The position numbers and the translations under genes are program-made. The notes beneath the pieces are model-generated. The model had not been told where the DNA came from and did not search any database. It worked only from the letters and a program-made list of their open reading frames with translations. Shown piece after piece: positions 12,608 to 22,417 of a stretch of 23,735 nt of DNA (position 1 is the stretch's first letter; each line of letters begins with the position of its first letter). Source of the stretch: a virus; the IMG/VR virus record IMGVR_UViG_3300017765_000063, positions 1 to 23,735 of that record. One strand, given 5' to 3'.

Positions 12608-13456
12608 CTATTCTGCACACTTCTGTATACGAATACCATTGGTATCAATTAAGATTGAACCCATTGATAGGTATGATGTTAATAGATGAGCTACTTTCTC
12701 AGGAATGTAGTTTACTTCAGTTCTAACTTCTGAACCTACGCCTAAACCCATTGAGGATTTATGCCAACAAACAGTATGTCTATCTGTTGCTCCAGATGTA
12801 TCAAGACCTGAGTGAACAAAAGTTAAGAATCCTAAGAATCTTTTAGCTGTGTAGTTCATTCCAGCGAAAGGTAATTGGCTTGGACCAATATAGTCAAGGT
12901 TTGACCAGTTATCTTCTGCTAGTAGATCACCCCATTGATTTGGACCTATTGCCCAATATCTTTGGTCATCATCAGGAACTTCGTTTGTTCCAAATAATGC
13001 TTGCATATCTTTGAACTTAGCTACATTCATATCAGTTGCTAATCCAGCTGTACCATTTGCACCAGCATTGTTTGCTACTTTAGTAGCAGAATCCATAGCT
13101 GTTGTAATAATACTGTCAGTCTTACGACCAAGAGCGTAAGCTGCGTTATTTGCAATTACTGCTCTTTCGTCAATGTTGGTTTTCAACTCGTCTAATTTAT
13201 CCACATAGTCAGATGCATAGTAGTCAGCAAGTGTTGCTGTTACATTTGTGTGTGAAATGTTCATCGCTACAACCTCAGCGTGTCTAGCTTTAGTTGTTGC
13301 TTCTCCTGTTCCTACTTTTTGGAACTTAACAGATTCACCTGATACACCATTAACTGTACGAATTAAATTTTTAAGTTTACTACCCATTCTTTGGTATGCC
13401 ATATGTACTTCAGCTTCAAACTGAGTAATAAAAGCATTGGTTATAGATGCACTCAT
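12608..13456 (-). CDS. Major capsid protein
   Basis: 282-aa shell protein. The N-terminal half carries the pattern I associate with the Phage_capsid_2-type major capsid proteins: FEAEVHMAYQRMGSKL (about residues 13-28), FQKVGTGEATTKARH (about 45-59), LADYYASDYVDKLDELKTN (about 76-94) and YALGRKTDSII (about 107-117). The protein is shorter than T7 gp10A (345 aa). Its AAAGGAG ribosome binding site lies five bases before the ATG and is among the strongest in this operon, as expected for the most abundant product. It follows a 133-bp gap after the scaffold module. Confidence 0.9.
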   Translation of the reverse strand: MSASITNAFITQFEAEVHMAYQRMGSKLKNLIRTVNGVSGESVKFQKVGTGEATTKARHAEVVAMNISHTNVTATLADYYASDYVDKLDELKTNIDERAVIANNAAYALGRKTDSIITTAMDSATKVANNAGANGTAGLATDMNVAKFKDMQALFGTNEVPDDDQRYWAIGPNQWGDLLAEDNWSNLDYIGPSQLPFAGMNYTAKRFLGFLTFVHSGLDTSGATDRHTVCWHKSSMGLGVGSEVRTEVNYIPEKVAHLLTSYLSMGSILIDTNGIRIQKCAE

Positions 13457-17338: not shown

Positions 17339-17752
17339 TTATAGATCTATCTCAGAATATCCTTCTTTTTTCAACGCACAATATAATTGATATGGCGTAA
17401 AGATCCACCATTTATTATAACCTATTAATCTTTGTACATAACTCACACAGCTATGTTCTTTAATCCATGATCCCATAAAACTAGGAAAGCCTGTTTTCTT
17501 TTGTGGCATTTCTCCTTGTAATACAACACCATTTTTCATTCTAATCATTCTAAAAAAAGCCTCTGCTGTTTGATCTGTAATTGTTTCAACTAATAATTGT
17601 CCAAATATATACTCAATAAGAATCCAATGTTTACTTGAGGGATCATAACTTATAACTCCACAATGTTTATAACCTTTTTTAAATTTTTTTGTATGTCTAT
17701 GTCCATCTTCGTTTTCAAAGAAGTATATTAGAAATTTGATCTGTTTTGCCAT
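17339..17752 (-). CDS. Putative permuted papain-like (NlpC/P60-related) protein
   Basis: 137-aa protein that overlaps the large terminase end by 25 bases. The layout recalls circularly permuted NlpC/P60 or YiiX-like enzymes, in which the catalytic His comes first and the Cys last. GYKHCGVIS places H30 at the start of a beta strand, WILIEY (43-48) gives the next strand with an acidic residue, and HSCVSYVQRLIG (100-111) places C102 at the start of a helix. The end, FTPYQLYCALKK, mirrors the 'tP-x-x-Ly' ending of that family. If active it would cut peptide or amide bonds in peptidoglycan or remove lipid or protein modifications. It could also be an inactive structural relative. No signal peptide or membrane segment is visible. 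Confidence 0.6.
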   Translation of the reverse strand: MAKQIKFLIYFFENEDGHRHTKKFKKGYKHCGVISYDPSSKHWILIEYIFGQLLVETITDQTAEAFFRMIRMKNGVVLQGEMPQKKTGFPSFMGSWIKEHSCVSYVQRLIGYNKWWIFTPYQLYCALKKEGYSEIDL

Positions 17753-19242
17753 ATAGATTTCTTTTTCTTTTTGTCAAAAATATTCCATCCTCTAGTCTTA
17801 ACTACAGAACTAGGTGTTGATATTCCTACTGTTAGCTGTTTACCTTCTCCAGCACCCATTAACATATACTGTAAAGCATCATGTACATGGGAATATTTGT
17901 TTTTATTTGGCTTTTCATCATAACGATCTCCAGATGTTTGTATTCTTCTGTAATGATAGCCACCATTAAAACCTTTTTTAAGGTTCACACAGCTATTGTT
18001 TAGTAAAAAACCAGACTTGCCTTCTACCAACCTACTCAAAGCTGTTTCTACAGCCTCTATACGCAGAGAAACATCATTACTTGGAGCTGGTCTAGCCTTA
18101 ACTCCTTGTGATCTCATTATTTGGAACGGAGTAGCTTCATCTGTTTGCACTCTAAAGTCTCCAGCTGGATCACCATATATATCTATGACTAAACCTTTGT
18201 ATGTTTTTGCTATTTCATACTTTAATAACTCAGTAAATCTAACTATACCCATATCAAAGCATACAAGCTCTTGTAAAATTACCCATCTACCACTTGATAG
18301 CTTCTGTCCAAAGACTGCTGCTGGTGTTAATCCAAAGTCAATACCAATAAATACATCAGTAGGAAAGGGTGCTATAACTTCTTTACTAAGATGTATATCT
18401 TCACTCCAGCTTGGATAAACAGGCTTACCTTCTTCTAGTGATCCTAGTTTATTCATAACATAAACATCAATCCATCCTTTAGTTTTACCTTTAACTATGT
18501 TTTCATAGTAAGCATCTGTAATAAATTTTTTATTTTCGCATAAAGGATTTCTTTCATAACCAGTTAATTCACCTTTATCATCTTTAGTTTCTAATAATGC
18601 TGGTGGTTGTGTATGAAAACTCCAGTTGTCAGGCTTGACTAACATTAATGCTTCTTCTCTACCTATATGATCTGGTACTGGTACATCACCAGCCATGACT
18701 GCCCACCAATGATCTTCTTCAGGTGCGTTAGTATCGGCTATAACACCATACCAAGATGCACCACCATCACGCATAGAAGGGAATCTACCTACACGCATAG
18801 TACAAGCATCAATGATTGACTTAGGTAATTCTCTTGCTTCATTAACCCAGACACCAGTAAGTTCTAATGACAGTAGTTTTTTTACATCCTCTGGTCTATC
18901 TAATGCTAAGAAGATAACTTCAACATCTGCATCACCAATAGTAATTTGATGTGTATAAGGAACTGACCATCTAAATGGTCCAAATGTATTTTCTGGAAAC
19001 CAATCCAGCCATGTTTTAATTGTTGTAGTTTTTAATTGAGGGTTCGTGTTCCTGATAACAGCCCAACGAGATTTTCTTCTTCCATCACTACCTTTAGACT
19101 GCTGAAGTGCTCTTCTAAATATTTCAATACAGCAAGCAACTGACTTACCGCTACCAACTGGTCCTCGAAGTCCTCTAAAGAAATCGTTTGATTTAAGAAA
19201 GCCTTTAAGTGTTCGTCCATCTGGTTTATAATTAAATTCCAT
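17728..19242 (-). CDS. terL: Terminase large subunit (packaging ATPase and nuclease)
   Basis: 504-aa motor protein that pumps DNA into the prohead and cuts it. The ATPase domain has Walker A GPVGSGKS (residues 27-34) and a Walker B-type strand TGVWVNEAREL (129-139) ending in the catalytic E135, preceded by an IRNTNPQLKTTT motif (63-74). The nuclease domain shows the acidic residues expected of an RNase H-like fold: D302 in GIDFGLTPAA, D358 in YGDPAGDFR and D455 in HVHDALQYML. It starts by a TAATG overlap with the 82-aa gene upstream. Unlike T7, where terminase genes end the genome, it precedes the portal here. Confidence 0.95.
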   Translation of the reverse strand: MEFNYKPDGRTLKGFLKSNDFFRGLRGPVGSGKSVACCIEIFRRALQQSKGSDGRRKSRWAVIRNTNPQLKTTTIKTWLDWFPENTFGPFRWSVPYTHQITIGDADVEVIFLALDRPEDVKKLLSLELTGVWVNEARELPKSIIDACTMRVGRFPSMRDGGASWYGVIADTNAPEEDHWWAVMAGDVPVPDHIGREEALMLVKPDNWSFHTQPPALLETKDDKGELTGYERNPLCENKKFITDAYYENIVKGKTKGWIDVYVMNKLGSLEEGKPVYPSWSEDIHLSKEVIAPFPTDVFIGIDFGLTPAAVFGQKLSSGRWVILQELVCFDMGIVRFTELLKYEIAKTYKGLVIDIYGDPAGDFRVQTDEATPFQIMRSQGVKARPAPSNDVSLRIEAVETALSRLVEGKSGFLLNNSCVNLKKGFNGGYHYRRIQTSGDRYDEKPNKNKYSHVHDALQYMLMGAGEGKQLTVGISTPSSVVKTRGWNIFDKKKKKSIWQNRSNF

Positions 19243-20977: not shown

Positions 20978-21391
20978 CTATGACAGGTCTATGTTGATCT
21001 TCAGTTGTCCTTCTACGCTGTGTTGTACCTTGTCTGGGGTGCGTAGTCCTACCCTGTCAAGTACATCCCTACTAGCTTCTAATTGCACATGCTCGCTCTT
21101 GGCACTACCAGCTAAATGGACAAGTTTGTTGGACGCAACTACAGCACCTAGTCCTAGTGTTCTCGCACACTGATCCATCATGTACTTTTGTACCTTGGCA
21201 GTTCGTAGTGTTCGTGACGCCTGTACTCTACCCCCATCTTTTGTTGAATATCCAGCCTTTATGGATGCTTCTTTGATGCTACATCCTGTGGCTACAAGTG
21301 TATCTACCAGCCTTACTTGCTTGGGTGTTAGTCCATACTTTGATGTAGCTGATTTTTCTTTATCGGTCAGATTCGTTTCTTGCGTGGACAC
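20978..21391 (-). CDS. terS: Terminase small subunit (putative)
   Basis: 137-aa protein. YGLTPKQVRLVDTLVATGCS (residues 19-38), then IKEASIKAGYS (39-49), is the classic DNA-binding helix-turn-helix start of many terminase small subunits. A long helical part follows (about 55-112), with an acidic/basic C-terminal tail ending KINIDLS. It would recognise the phage packaging site and recruit the large subunit, which is nearly 1.8 kb downstream rather than adjacent. The start is a GTG at 21391; an in-frame stop lies two codons before it, no in-frame ATG comes before residue 71, and AAGAG abuts the GTG. The gene is much more GC-rich than the rest: 88 of 180 bases (49%) in 21001-21180 against about 33-35% in lines sampled in the virion genes. 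Confidence 0.75.
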   Translation of the reverse strand: MSTQETNLTDKEKSATSKYGLTPKQVRLVDTLVATGCSIKEASIKAGYSTKDGGRVQASRTLRTAKVQKYMMDQCARTLGLGAVVASNKLVHLAGSAKSEHVQLEASRDVLDRVGLRTPDKVQHSVEGQLKINIDLS

Positions 21392-21400
21392 CTCTTGTTA

Positions 21401-21427
21401 GTTATAGATAGGAAATATTGATGTCAA
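21401..21427 (-). promoter_or_regulatory. Candidate sigma-70 promoter abutting the small terminase start
   Basis: On the minus strand a perfect TTGACA (21427-21422) is followed after 15 bases by TATAAC (21406-21401). Transcription would start near 21394, only about three bases before the GTG start at 21391, giving an almost leaderless mRNA. The 15-base spacing is short, so the match could be fortuitous. Confidence 0.4.
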
Positions 21428-21493
21428 GAACAAAATGTAGACATTAAATATATCACTGAATCTACTATATATATTTTACTCATTACATACTCC

Positions 21494-21542
21494 ATTTAAG
21501 AATGAAGCTCGCTTCAACCTTGCTTTGCAAGGATTCTTAAAT
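21494..21542. ncRNA. Three-way-junction fold element
   Basis: A perfect 10-bp outer stem, ATTTAAGAAT (21494-21503) with ATTCTTAAAT (21533-21542), encloses two adjacent perfect hairpins: GAAGC-TC-GCTTC (21504-21515) and CCTTGC-TTT-GCAAGG (21518-21532). Only two bases (AA, 21516-21517) stay unpaired at the junction, so 42 of 49 positions pair. The design works as RNA from either strand, or as a DNA cruciform. Whether it is transcribed is unknown; the type given is provisional. Confidence 0.55.
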
Positions 21543-21573
21543 ACGTATTACATTCAATTCAGTTCATCTTTTG

Positions 21574-21594
21574 TTGGGGGTACACAACCCCCAA
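21574..21594. repeat. G5/C5 stem-loop with a competing second C5 run
   Basis: TTGGGGGT (21574-21581), loop ACACA, ACCCCCAA (21587-21594): 8 bp, perfect. A second CCCCC (21596-21600) immediately follows and could pair with the same G run, so two alternative folds exist. No T-tract follows on either strand. Confidence 0.55.
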
Positions 21595-21610
21595 ACCCCC
21601 ACGTGTTCCA

Positions 21611-21722: not shown

Positions 21723-21803
21723 ATACATTAGAATAACAAGTGGTCGCAGTAACTGCCAAGCATCTTTCATATTATTTGTATTAGTTTCTTCTGAATATAA
21801 GGC

Positions 21804-21820
21804 GTTATCATGGAGATAAC
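21804..21820 (+). repeat. Stem-loop upstream of the plus-strand operon
   Basis: GTTATC-ATGGA-GATAAC, perfect 6 bp, flanked by a further GG/CC pair beyond one mismatch (21801-21802 with 21822-21823). It lies about 58 bases before the first plus-strand ATG, and its 5' flank ATAAGGCGTTA (21797-21807) recurs in the stem-loop after that same gene (22446-22456). Confidence 0.45.
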
Positions 21821-21829
21821 ACCAATAAC

Positions 21830-21877: not shown

Positions 21878-22417
21878 ATGACTACAATAGAACAAAAAGA
21901 AACTGAAATACTTGCTACTGTAAGAACAAATACATTGGCTTCATTAGAAACTATGTATAGAGATTTTGTCAAATTTGATGATATCTTCAATCTTAAGTGT
22001 GAGTTAGGGAGTGAGTTATCTCGTATAACTTACAGAGTTAATAATCAAAAATCCAAAATGGATGAGAAAGAAATTGAGTACACAAAACTCAAAGAAATCA
22101 ATGGCTCTAACATCAATAGTGTTAAGGCATCATTTCAAGGTCAAGAAACATATGCCCAACAATTAGGTAGAATTGAATGGTCAGTTGAGAGAATGATGTA
22201 CACTCTTGAAATCTTAGAAACTAAATATTTAGTGACTAAAGAATTTTATGAGAGAGTTGTTGGAGAGAAGTATGTACCATACTCATCAGGCAAGGTAAAA
22301 GATACCAAGAAGCTACAAGCTGAAAGTAAAAAAGGCAAAGAATGGTTAGCAAAGAATAACCATGAATTGCCATCTATCATTGAAGGTAGTGAACTAATAC
22401 CAGCTATAGCTGAATAA
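21878..22417 (+). CDS. Unknown coiled-coil protein, first gene of the plus-strand arm
   Basis: 179-aa charged, helical protein without cysteine-rich, membrane or enzymatic motifs that I recognise. Residues about 45-75 (LSRITYRVNNQKSKMDEKEI onward) and 95-130 (an LGRIEWSVERMMYTLEILET helix) look like coiled coils. The tail has a Lys-rich linker and a hydrophobic end (IIEGSELIPAIAE). It has the best ribosome binding site of the plus-strand arm (AAGGAG, six-base spacing) and is followed by tandem stem-loops, so it may be a separately expressed, abundant early protein. Function unknown. Confidence 0.8.
   Translation: MTTIEQKETEILATVRTNTLASLETMYRDFVKFDDIFNLKCELGSELSRITYRVNNQKSKMDEKEIEYTKLKEINGSNINSVKASFQGQETYAQQLGRIEWSVERMMYTLEILETKYLVTKEFYERVVGEKYVPYSSGKVKDTKKLQAESKKGKEWLAKNNHELPSIIEGSELIPAIAE

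Follow-up and report, generated by a model that had tools for sequence, protein, structure and literature searches.

The question raised by this locus is whether a compact 49-base element of enclosing and adjacent inverted repeats (element A) is a functional structure and, if so, whether it acts as RNA or as DNA. The window, that is, the whole stretch of DNA analysed, is a 23,735-base viral contig (record IMGVR_UViG_3300017765_000063) in which an operon of podovirus structural genes lies on the minus strand and early genes occupy the plus strand from position 21878 onward; among named isolates, Pelagibacter phage EXVC031P Hodr is closest to it in TerL (66% identity). The initial annotation correctly assigned element A to a divergent control region, since terS and the first early gene diverge from the 486 bases that separate them (Table 1). 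At the opposite end of the window, positions 1-1236 encode a tail-fibre-like protein with near-perfect short repeats (NTLATADIVSDM..), which runs off the contig end.

Table 1. Features of the divergent control region and genes of the window
Feature	Position	Strand	Basis or remark
Major capsid protein gene	12608-13456	minus	in structural operon
terL	17728-19242	minus	in structural operon
terS	20978-21391	minus	Pfam Terminase_2, E 1.6e-9
Promoter-like motif TTGACA-15-TATAAC, before terS	21401-21427	minus	sequence; recurs in relatives
Promoter-like motif TAGACA-17-TCTACT, sigma-70-like	21438-21466	plus	points to element A and early gene
Element A, outer stem, left arm (ATTTAAGAAT)	21494-21503		sequence; pairs 1, 5 and 7 covary
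Element A, inner hairpin 1 (GAAGC-TC-GCTTC)	21504-21515		realistic form 4 bp with 4-nt loop
Element A, inner hairpin 2 (CCTTGC-TTT-GCAAGG)	21518-21532		sequence, fold
Element A, outer stem, right arm (ATTCTTAAAT)	21533-21542		complement of 21494-21503
G5/C5 hairpin (TTGGGGGT-ACACA-ACCCCCAA), then second C-tract	21574-21594		fold
Hairpin P0 (AAAGGATGTCTTAAATCCTTT)	21612-21632		fold; in all relatives with element B
Element B, larger three-way junction: outer stem P1, hairpin P4, stem P2 carrying hairpin P3	21661-21775	minus	covariance model
Hairpin H6 (GGCGTTATC-ATGGA-GATAACACC), between element B and early gene	21801-21823		conserved in relatives
Early gene (179 aa), first early gene, divergent from terS	21878-22417	plus	

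Element A (21494-21542) reads ATTTAAGAAT-GAAGC-TC-GCTTC-AA-CCTTGC-TTT-GCAAGG-ATTCTTAAAT. The three-way junction originally described, with a perfect 10-bp outer stem, two inner stems and a 2-nt junction, stands except in one detail: of the 42 paired positions claimed among the 49, 40 are more realistic, because steric constraints make a 2-nt loop on a 5-bp stem improbable in RNA, and the predicted fold has a 4-bp stem with a loop of 4 nt instead. The predicted RNA MFE is -15.1 kcal/mol on the plus strand (z -3.84, none of 200 shuffles as good) and -14.1 kcal/mol on the minus strand (z -2.90, 4 of 200 as good), and as single-stranded DNA the values are -11.9 and -11.5 (z -4.6 and -4.8), so that the comparison with shuffled sequences proposed at the outset places element A far below them in either chemistry. 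A motif scan for an outer stem of at least 7 bp enclosing two perfect hairpins found element A as the sole site in the 23.7-kb window, and first-order Markov simulations (2 x 593 kb, 1.19 Mb) gave no matches when the outer stem was set to 10 bp; with a minimum of 7 bp the rate was 0.04-0.08 per window. These simulations and the shuffles bear out the suggestion that such a structure is rare in random AT-rich DNA; chance in AT-rich sequence does not explain the fold.

Related contigs were retrieved by TerL, TerS and the early protein, and a DNA pattern of the element was used in a separate scan. Element A was found at the same place in six other IMG/VR contigs (L112/L085, a 99% relative; L113; L116; L122; L119; L121), and the window and these six carriers together have four distinct 49-mers. 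The outer stem occurs as ATTTAAGAAT/ATTCTTAAAT, ATTTGAGAAT/ATTCTCAAAT or TATTTAAAAT/ATTTTAAACA, and hairpin 2 as CCTTGC/GCAAGG or CCTCGC/GCGAGG, its fourth pair being T-A or C-G by double change, with a loop of TTT or TTC. The stem of hairpin 1 is invariant in all carriers (loop TC, CA or TA) and therefore supplies no covariation evidence. The compensatory changes that the initial annotation asked for in all three stems are present at outer pairs 1, 5 and 7, at one pair of the 6-bp hairpin and, as a minus-strand G-U, at outer pair 2, but not in the 5-bp hairpin. Altogether, double changes that leave the stems intact occur in 5 of the 21 pairs, and none of 500 shuffles matched either the paired percentage or the covariation score. 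Read as minus-strand RNA, all 105 cells are paired (100%), outer pair 2 being U-A or G-U; read on the plus strand, 98.1% are paired because this pair is A.C in L119 and L121. The independent covariation events are few, perhaps three to five. Element A is better conserved than its flanks.

Beyond these contigs the element was not encountered. A covariance search of 76 loci returned the known carriers only, an exact degenerate pattern found no copy in approximately 85,000 prokaryotic genomes (host or prophage), and a wider search with the second hairpin left free returned the known contigs and seven matches that do not fold as element A. The sequence AAGGATTCTTAAAT, which forms window positions 21527-21542 of element A, is also present without any difference in the P0 hairpin of three relatives that lack the element (L098, L099 and L009); common origin, a shared protein site and coincidence are all possible.

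Absence of the element from close relatives had been named in advance as evidence against it, and this was observed in part. Seven close relatives (L114, L115, L117, L118, L120, L123 and L124), whose TerS proteins are 92-97% identical to that of the window, have no element A, but what they are missing is a clean block of approximately 100 bp, comprising element A and its flanks, between ACACTG and CATATTTYGTTGGGGG, with no sign of decay. L113, which has element A, is otherwise nearly identical to L114 and L117, which do not. On trees built from terS and from the early gene, the presence of element A must have changed four to five times; well supported branches by themselves force two to three of these changes. 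From the block absence and these changes it follows that element A is dispensable and has been exchanged or repeatedly lost. Element A is thus a real, unclassified, dispensable and exchangeable structural module.

The surroundings of element A are also structured. The plus-strand promoter-like motif lies approximately 28 bp to its left and is kept in all 12 regions compared, with and without element A, as TRGACA/GAGACA-17-TNNACT in ten of them and as ACGACA-17-TTAACT in L125 and L127. The motif of the window is too weak for the consensus promoter scan, which was limited to spacers of 16-18 nt and so also left the terS motif, with its 15-nt spacer, outside its range. Transcription from the plus-strand motif is predicted to start at approximately 21473-21475, with element A beginning at about +20. 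Host-type promoters are plausible for the related phages; a search for phage-type RNA polymerase matched nothing in them, although its own control matched nothing either. A search for replication enzymes in relatives found no DNA polymerase A, so replication may depend on host enzymes. By inspection, the early regions of two relatives (L192 and L194) encode SSB, a YqaJ-like exonuclease and a Rad52/Sak-like annealing protein.

Perfect hairpins of at least 6 bp number 6 in the window against 0.33 expected, and the region between terS and the early gene is rich in hairpins across most of the phage group: whole-region folding is far below shuffles (z about -3 to -12) in 18 of 19 regions, the exception being L125, whose relative L127 was outside the set. 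The sequence GTTGGGGGTACRCAACCCCCAAACCCCC of the G5/C5 hairpin was found in 11 contigs, and in relatives without element A this hairpin directly follows the plus-strand promoter motif. Around it, window positions 21573-21600 (GTTGGGGGTACACAACCCCCAAACCCCC) contain a single G-tract that faces two C-tracts, and this stretch is the same in 11 contigs apart from one base; the more distant relatives L129 and L139 have a similar CCCCCC..CCCCCC..GGGGGG layout in a different order, and the strand geometry at 21573-21600 would permit slipped pairing or a triplex. In the intergenic region of L119 and L121 (748-768 nt, about 3 kb on the upstream side), element A is present and element B is replaced by an unrelated, strongly folding segment of approximately 500 nt; the whole region folds at -188 to -230 kcal/mol, and no Rfam match was found in L100 and L005, which derive from the same contigs. 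In the region of Hodr (L002) upstream of the gene divergent from terS, the ribosome-binding site CCAAAGGAGGA has an exact 11-nt complement approximately 150 bases upstream, and the leader folds as one long stem (-95 kcal/mol), so that translational control is possible there. Sequestration of the ribosome-binding site was rejected as a general mechanism: across relatives the longest complements are 6-11 nt and not systematic, and only Hodr is striking.

A larger structure than element A is element B, a branched fold that has conserved unpaired segments, belongs to no Rfam family and is RNA-like in its imperfections (bulges, mismatches and wobble pairs). Its covariance model matched 15 further loci (E down to 6e-31), and element B is present in all close relatives except L119, L121, L125 and L127, as well as in L009, L010, L108 and L111, whose TerS proteins are only about 73% identical. 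In the model alignment, which was fitted to the structure and so favours covariation somewhat, 94% of cells are paired, 16 of 39 pairs have double changes, and the 47 double-change cells compare with a shuffle mean of 15.6 (none of 500 shuffles as high). Element B has stronger covariation and a wider distribution than element A. It is the better candidate of the two for a new RNA family, and probably also the feature of greater importance in this region.

Comparison with known elements gave modest functional insight. The initial annotation could not place element A in a family of RNA or DNA elements, and this is borne out by the pattern search of prokaryotic genomes and by Rfam, in which neither the window nor nine related loci had a match at the gathering threshold and matches at E<=10 were at chance level, far below threshold. 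Element A belongs to no known family. A literature search for pelagiphage noncoding RNA gave no relevant paper. ARAGORN found no tRNA or tmRNA in the window, and with no cloverleaf there this identity was rejected for element A; so was that of an intrinsic terminator, of which a scan found none at the element, as there is no U-tract and the sequence that follows is ACGTATT on the plus strand and GGAGTATG on the minus strand. The pRNA of phi29-type phages (Rfam Phage_pRNA) is likewise a three-way junction encoded by a phage near packaging-related genes. The phi29 packaging motor operates without TerS. TerS is present here, the 2-4 nt loops of element A (TC, TTT) are not complementary and Rfam gave no match, so element A was not identified as a pRNA. 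GOLLD and ROOL (PMC12286853) are large, ornate structured phage RNAs, and the region studied here is likewise elaborately folded over 300-800 nt; it differs from them in having no Rfam match at the gathering level, in being much smaller and in not lying near tRNAs.

The nearest functional analogue of element A, compared in position and architecture, may be the put RNA of phage HK022, a cis-acting antiterminator of approximately 70 nt, of which putL lies just downstream of the early promoter PL, that causes the host polymerase to ignore terminators (PMC9378689). The put RNAs are defined by two stem-loops with essential primary sequence and by factor-independent antitermination through the zinc-binding domain of the RNA polymerase beta' subunit. 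A put-like action would require rightward transcription of element A, which would then be, like put, a small multi-stem structure close to a sigma-70-type promoter that serves an early phage operon. It differs in that put comprises two long stem-loops along with a triplex that starts at nucleotide 3, whereas element A is 49 nt long, has an enclosing third stem and would start approximately 20 nt into the transcript.

Among the three readings originally offered, a structured RNA is favoured, a cruciform is possible and a simple dimer-binding site is less likely because the three-stem fold is kept. The favoured reading, which we hold tentatively, is that element A is a small structured module that most likely acts as RNA, forming one of the folded parts of a leader presumed to be transcribed from the divergent region between terS and the early gene in this podovirus group. 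This reading is preferred because pairing is kept by covariation, chance is excluded, the site is constant just downstream of a promoter motif, and the region folds strongly and contains an RNA-type covarying neighbour in element B. The DNA-level alternative, in which the inverted repeats form a cruciform or single-strand hairpins as the recognition site of a protein of replication, packaging or regulation, seems unlikely, although relative to shuffles element A folds at least as well as DNA, most of its changes are full Watson-Crick double changes, the region is rich in perfect inverted repeats, and the lack of DNA polymerase A in relatives makes host-dependent origin elements conceivable. 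Element A also lies directly upstream of terS, recalling pac of phage SPP1, which overlaps the beginning of the terS gene as well as late promoters (PMC6316719), and, like SPP1 pac and lambda cos, it is noncoding DNA beside terS and its promoter; on the other hand 80-150 bp separate it from terS, whose start it does not reach, and TerS cannot need element A when the seven close relatives with near-identical TerS do without it, which led us to reject a pac- or cos-type terminase recognition site. The bulges, mismatches and wobble pairs of element B also speak for RNA rather than DNA.

A neutral origin appears unlikely: a palindromic insertion could be kept perfect by template switching between its arms (quasipalindrome correction) without selection for structure, and template switching can yield perfect stems as well as compensatory changes of several bases (PMC8794818). 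The outer stems of L119 and L121 do differ by several changes at once, two or three events could explain all double changes among only four distinct sequences, and presence and absence in close relatives fit a dispensable insertion. This explanation does not account as readily for an element more conserved than its flanks, for three stems rather than one remaining intact with change in an inner hairpin as well as the outer stem, or for a constant position directly after the promoter motif.

If element A is RNA, its strand is nearly evenly balanced, with a slight lean to the rightward direction because the only conserved promoter-like motif that would transcribe the element is visible there, pointing at it. 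The rightward reading must contend with the fact that the only unpaired plus-strand cells of element A become G-U on the minus strand, and that wobbles in element B and hairpin H6 (one pair, C.A on plus and U-G on minus) behave likewise: about six well supported pair positions (one in element A, four in B and one in H6) are G-U on minus and A.C on plus, against none in reverse, a count biased by the construction of the element B model on the minus strand. A leftward transcript carrying both A and B on the minus strand, either as leader of the late (terS) operon or as a separate antisense or noncoding RNA, is nevertheless somewhat unlikely. It is favoured by this asymmetry and by the lower RNAalifold energy of the B region on the minus strand (-41.4, against -20.9 on plus), but neither a consensus scan nor inspection revealed a good or conserved promoter on the minus strand to the right of B, terS has its own promoter-like motif to the left of A, and over whole regions the two strands have similar z-scores and equal wobble counts, with no strand preference.

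As part of a leader RNA, element A would be transcribed rightward from the plus-strand motif and would fold approximately 20 nt into the early-operon leader, where it may work on the nascent transcript, by affecting RNA polymerase in the manner of HK022 put RNA or by slowing decay of the leader. Absence from seven close relatives argues against an essential role; as these relatives have another stable, promoter-proximal hairpin (G5/C5), element A would be an optional extra module. A broader and speculative proposal is that the region encodes a modular, fast-evolving leader RNA of undescribed families, with A as a swappable three-way-junction domain and B as the core, which acts in cis on the host RNA polymerase by put-like, factor-independent antitermination in streamlined marine bacteria. 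Almost nothing is known of gene control in these abundant marine phages. The natural presence/absence pair of L113 and L114/L117 is a ready-made test of the action of such a module, and RNA-seq and probing are feasible with Hodr, a related isolate whose region is just as structured. If elements A and B are RNAs, they would be new structured-RNA families in abundant marine phages.
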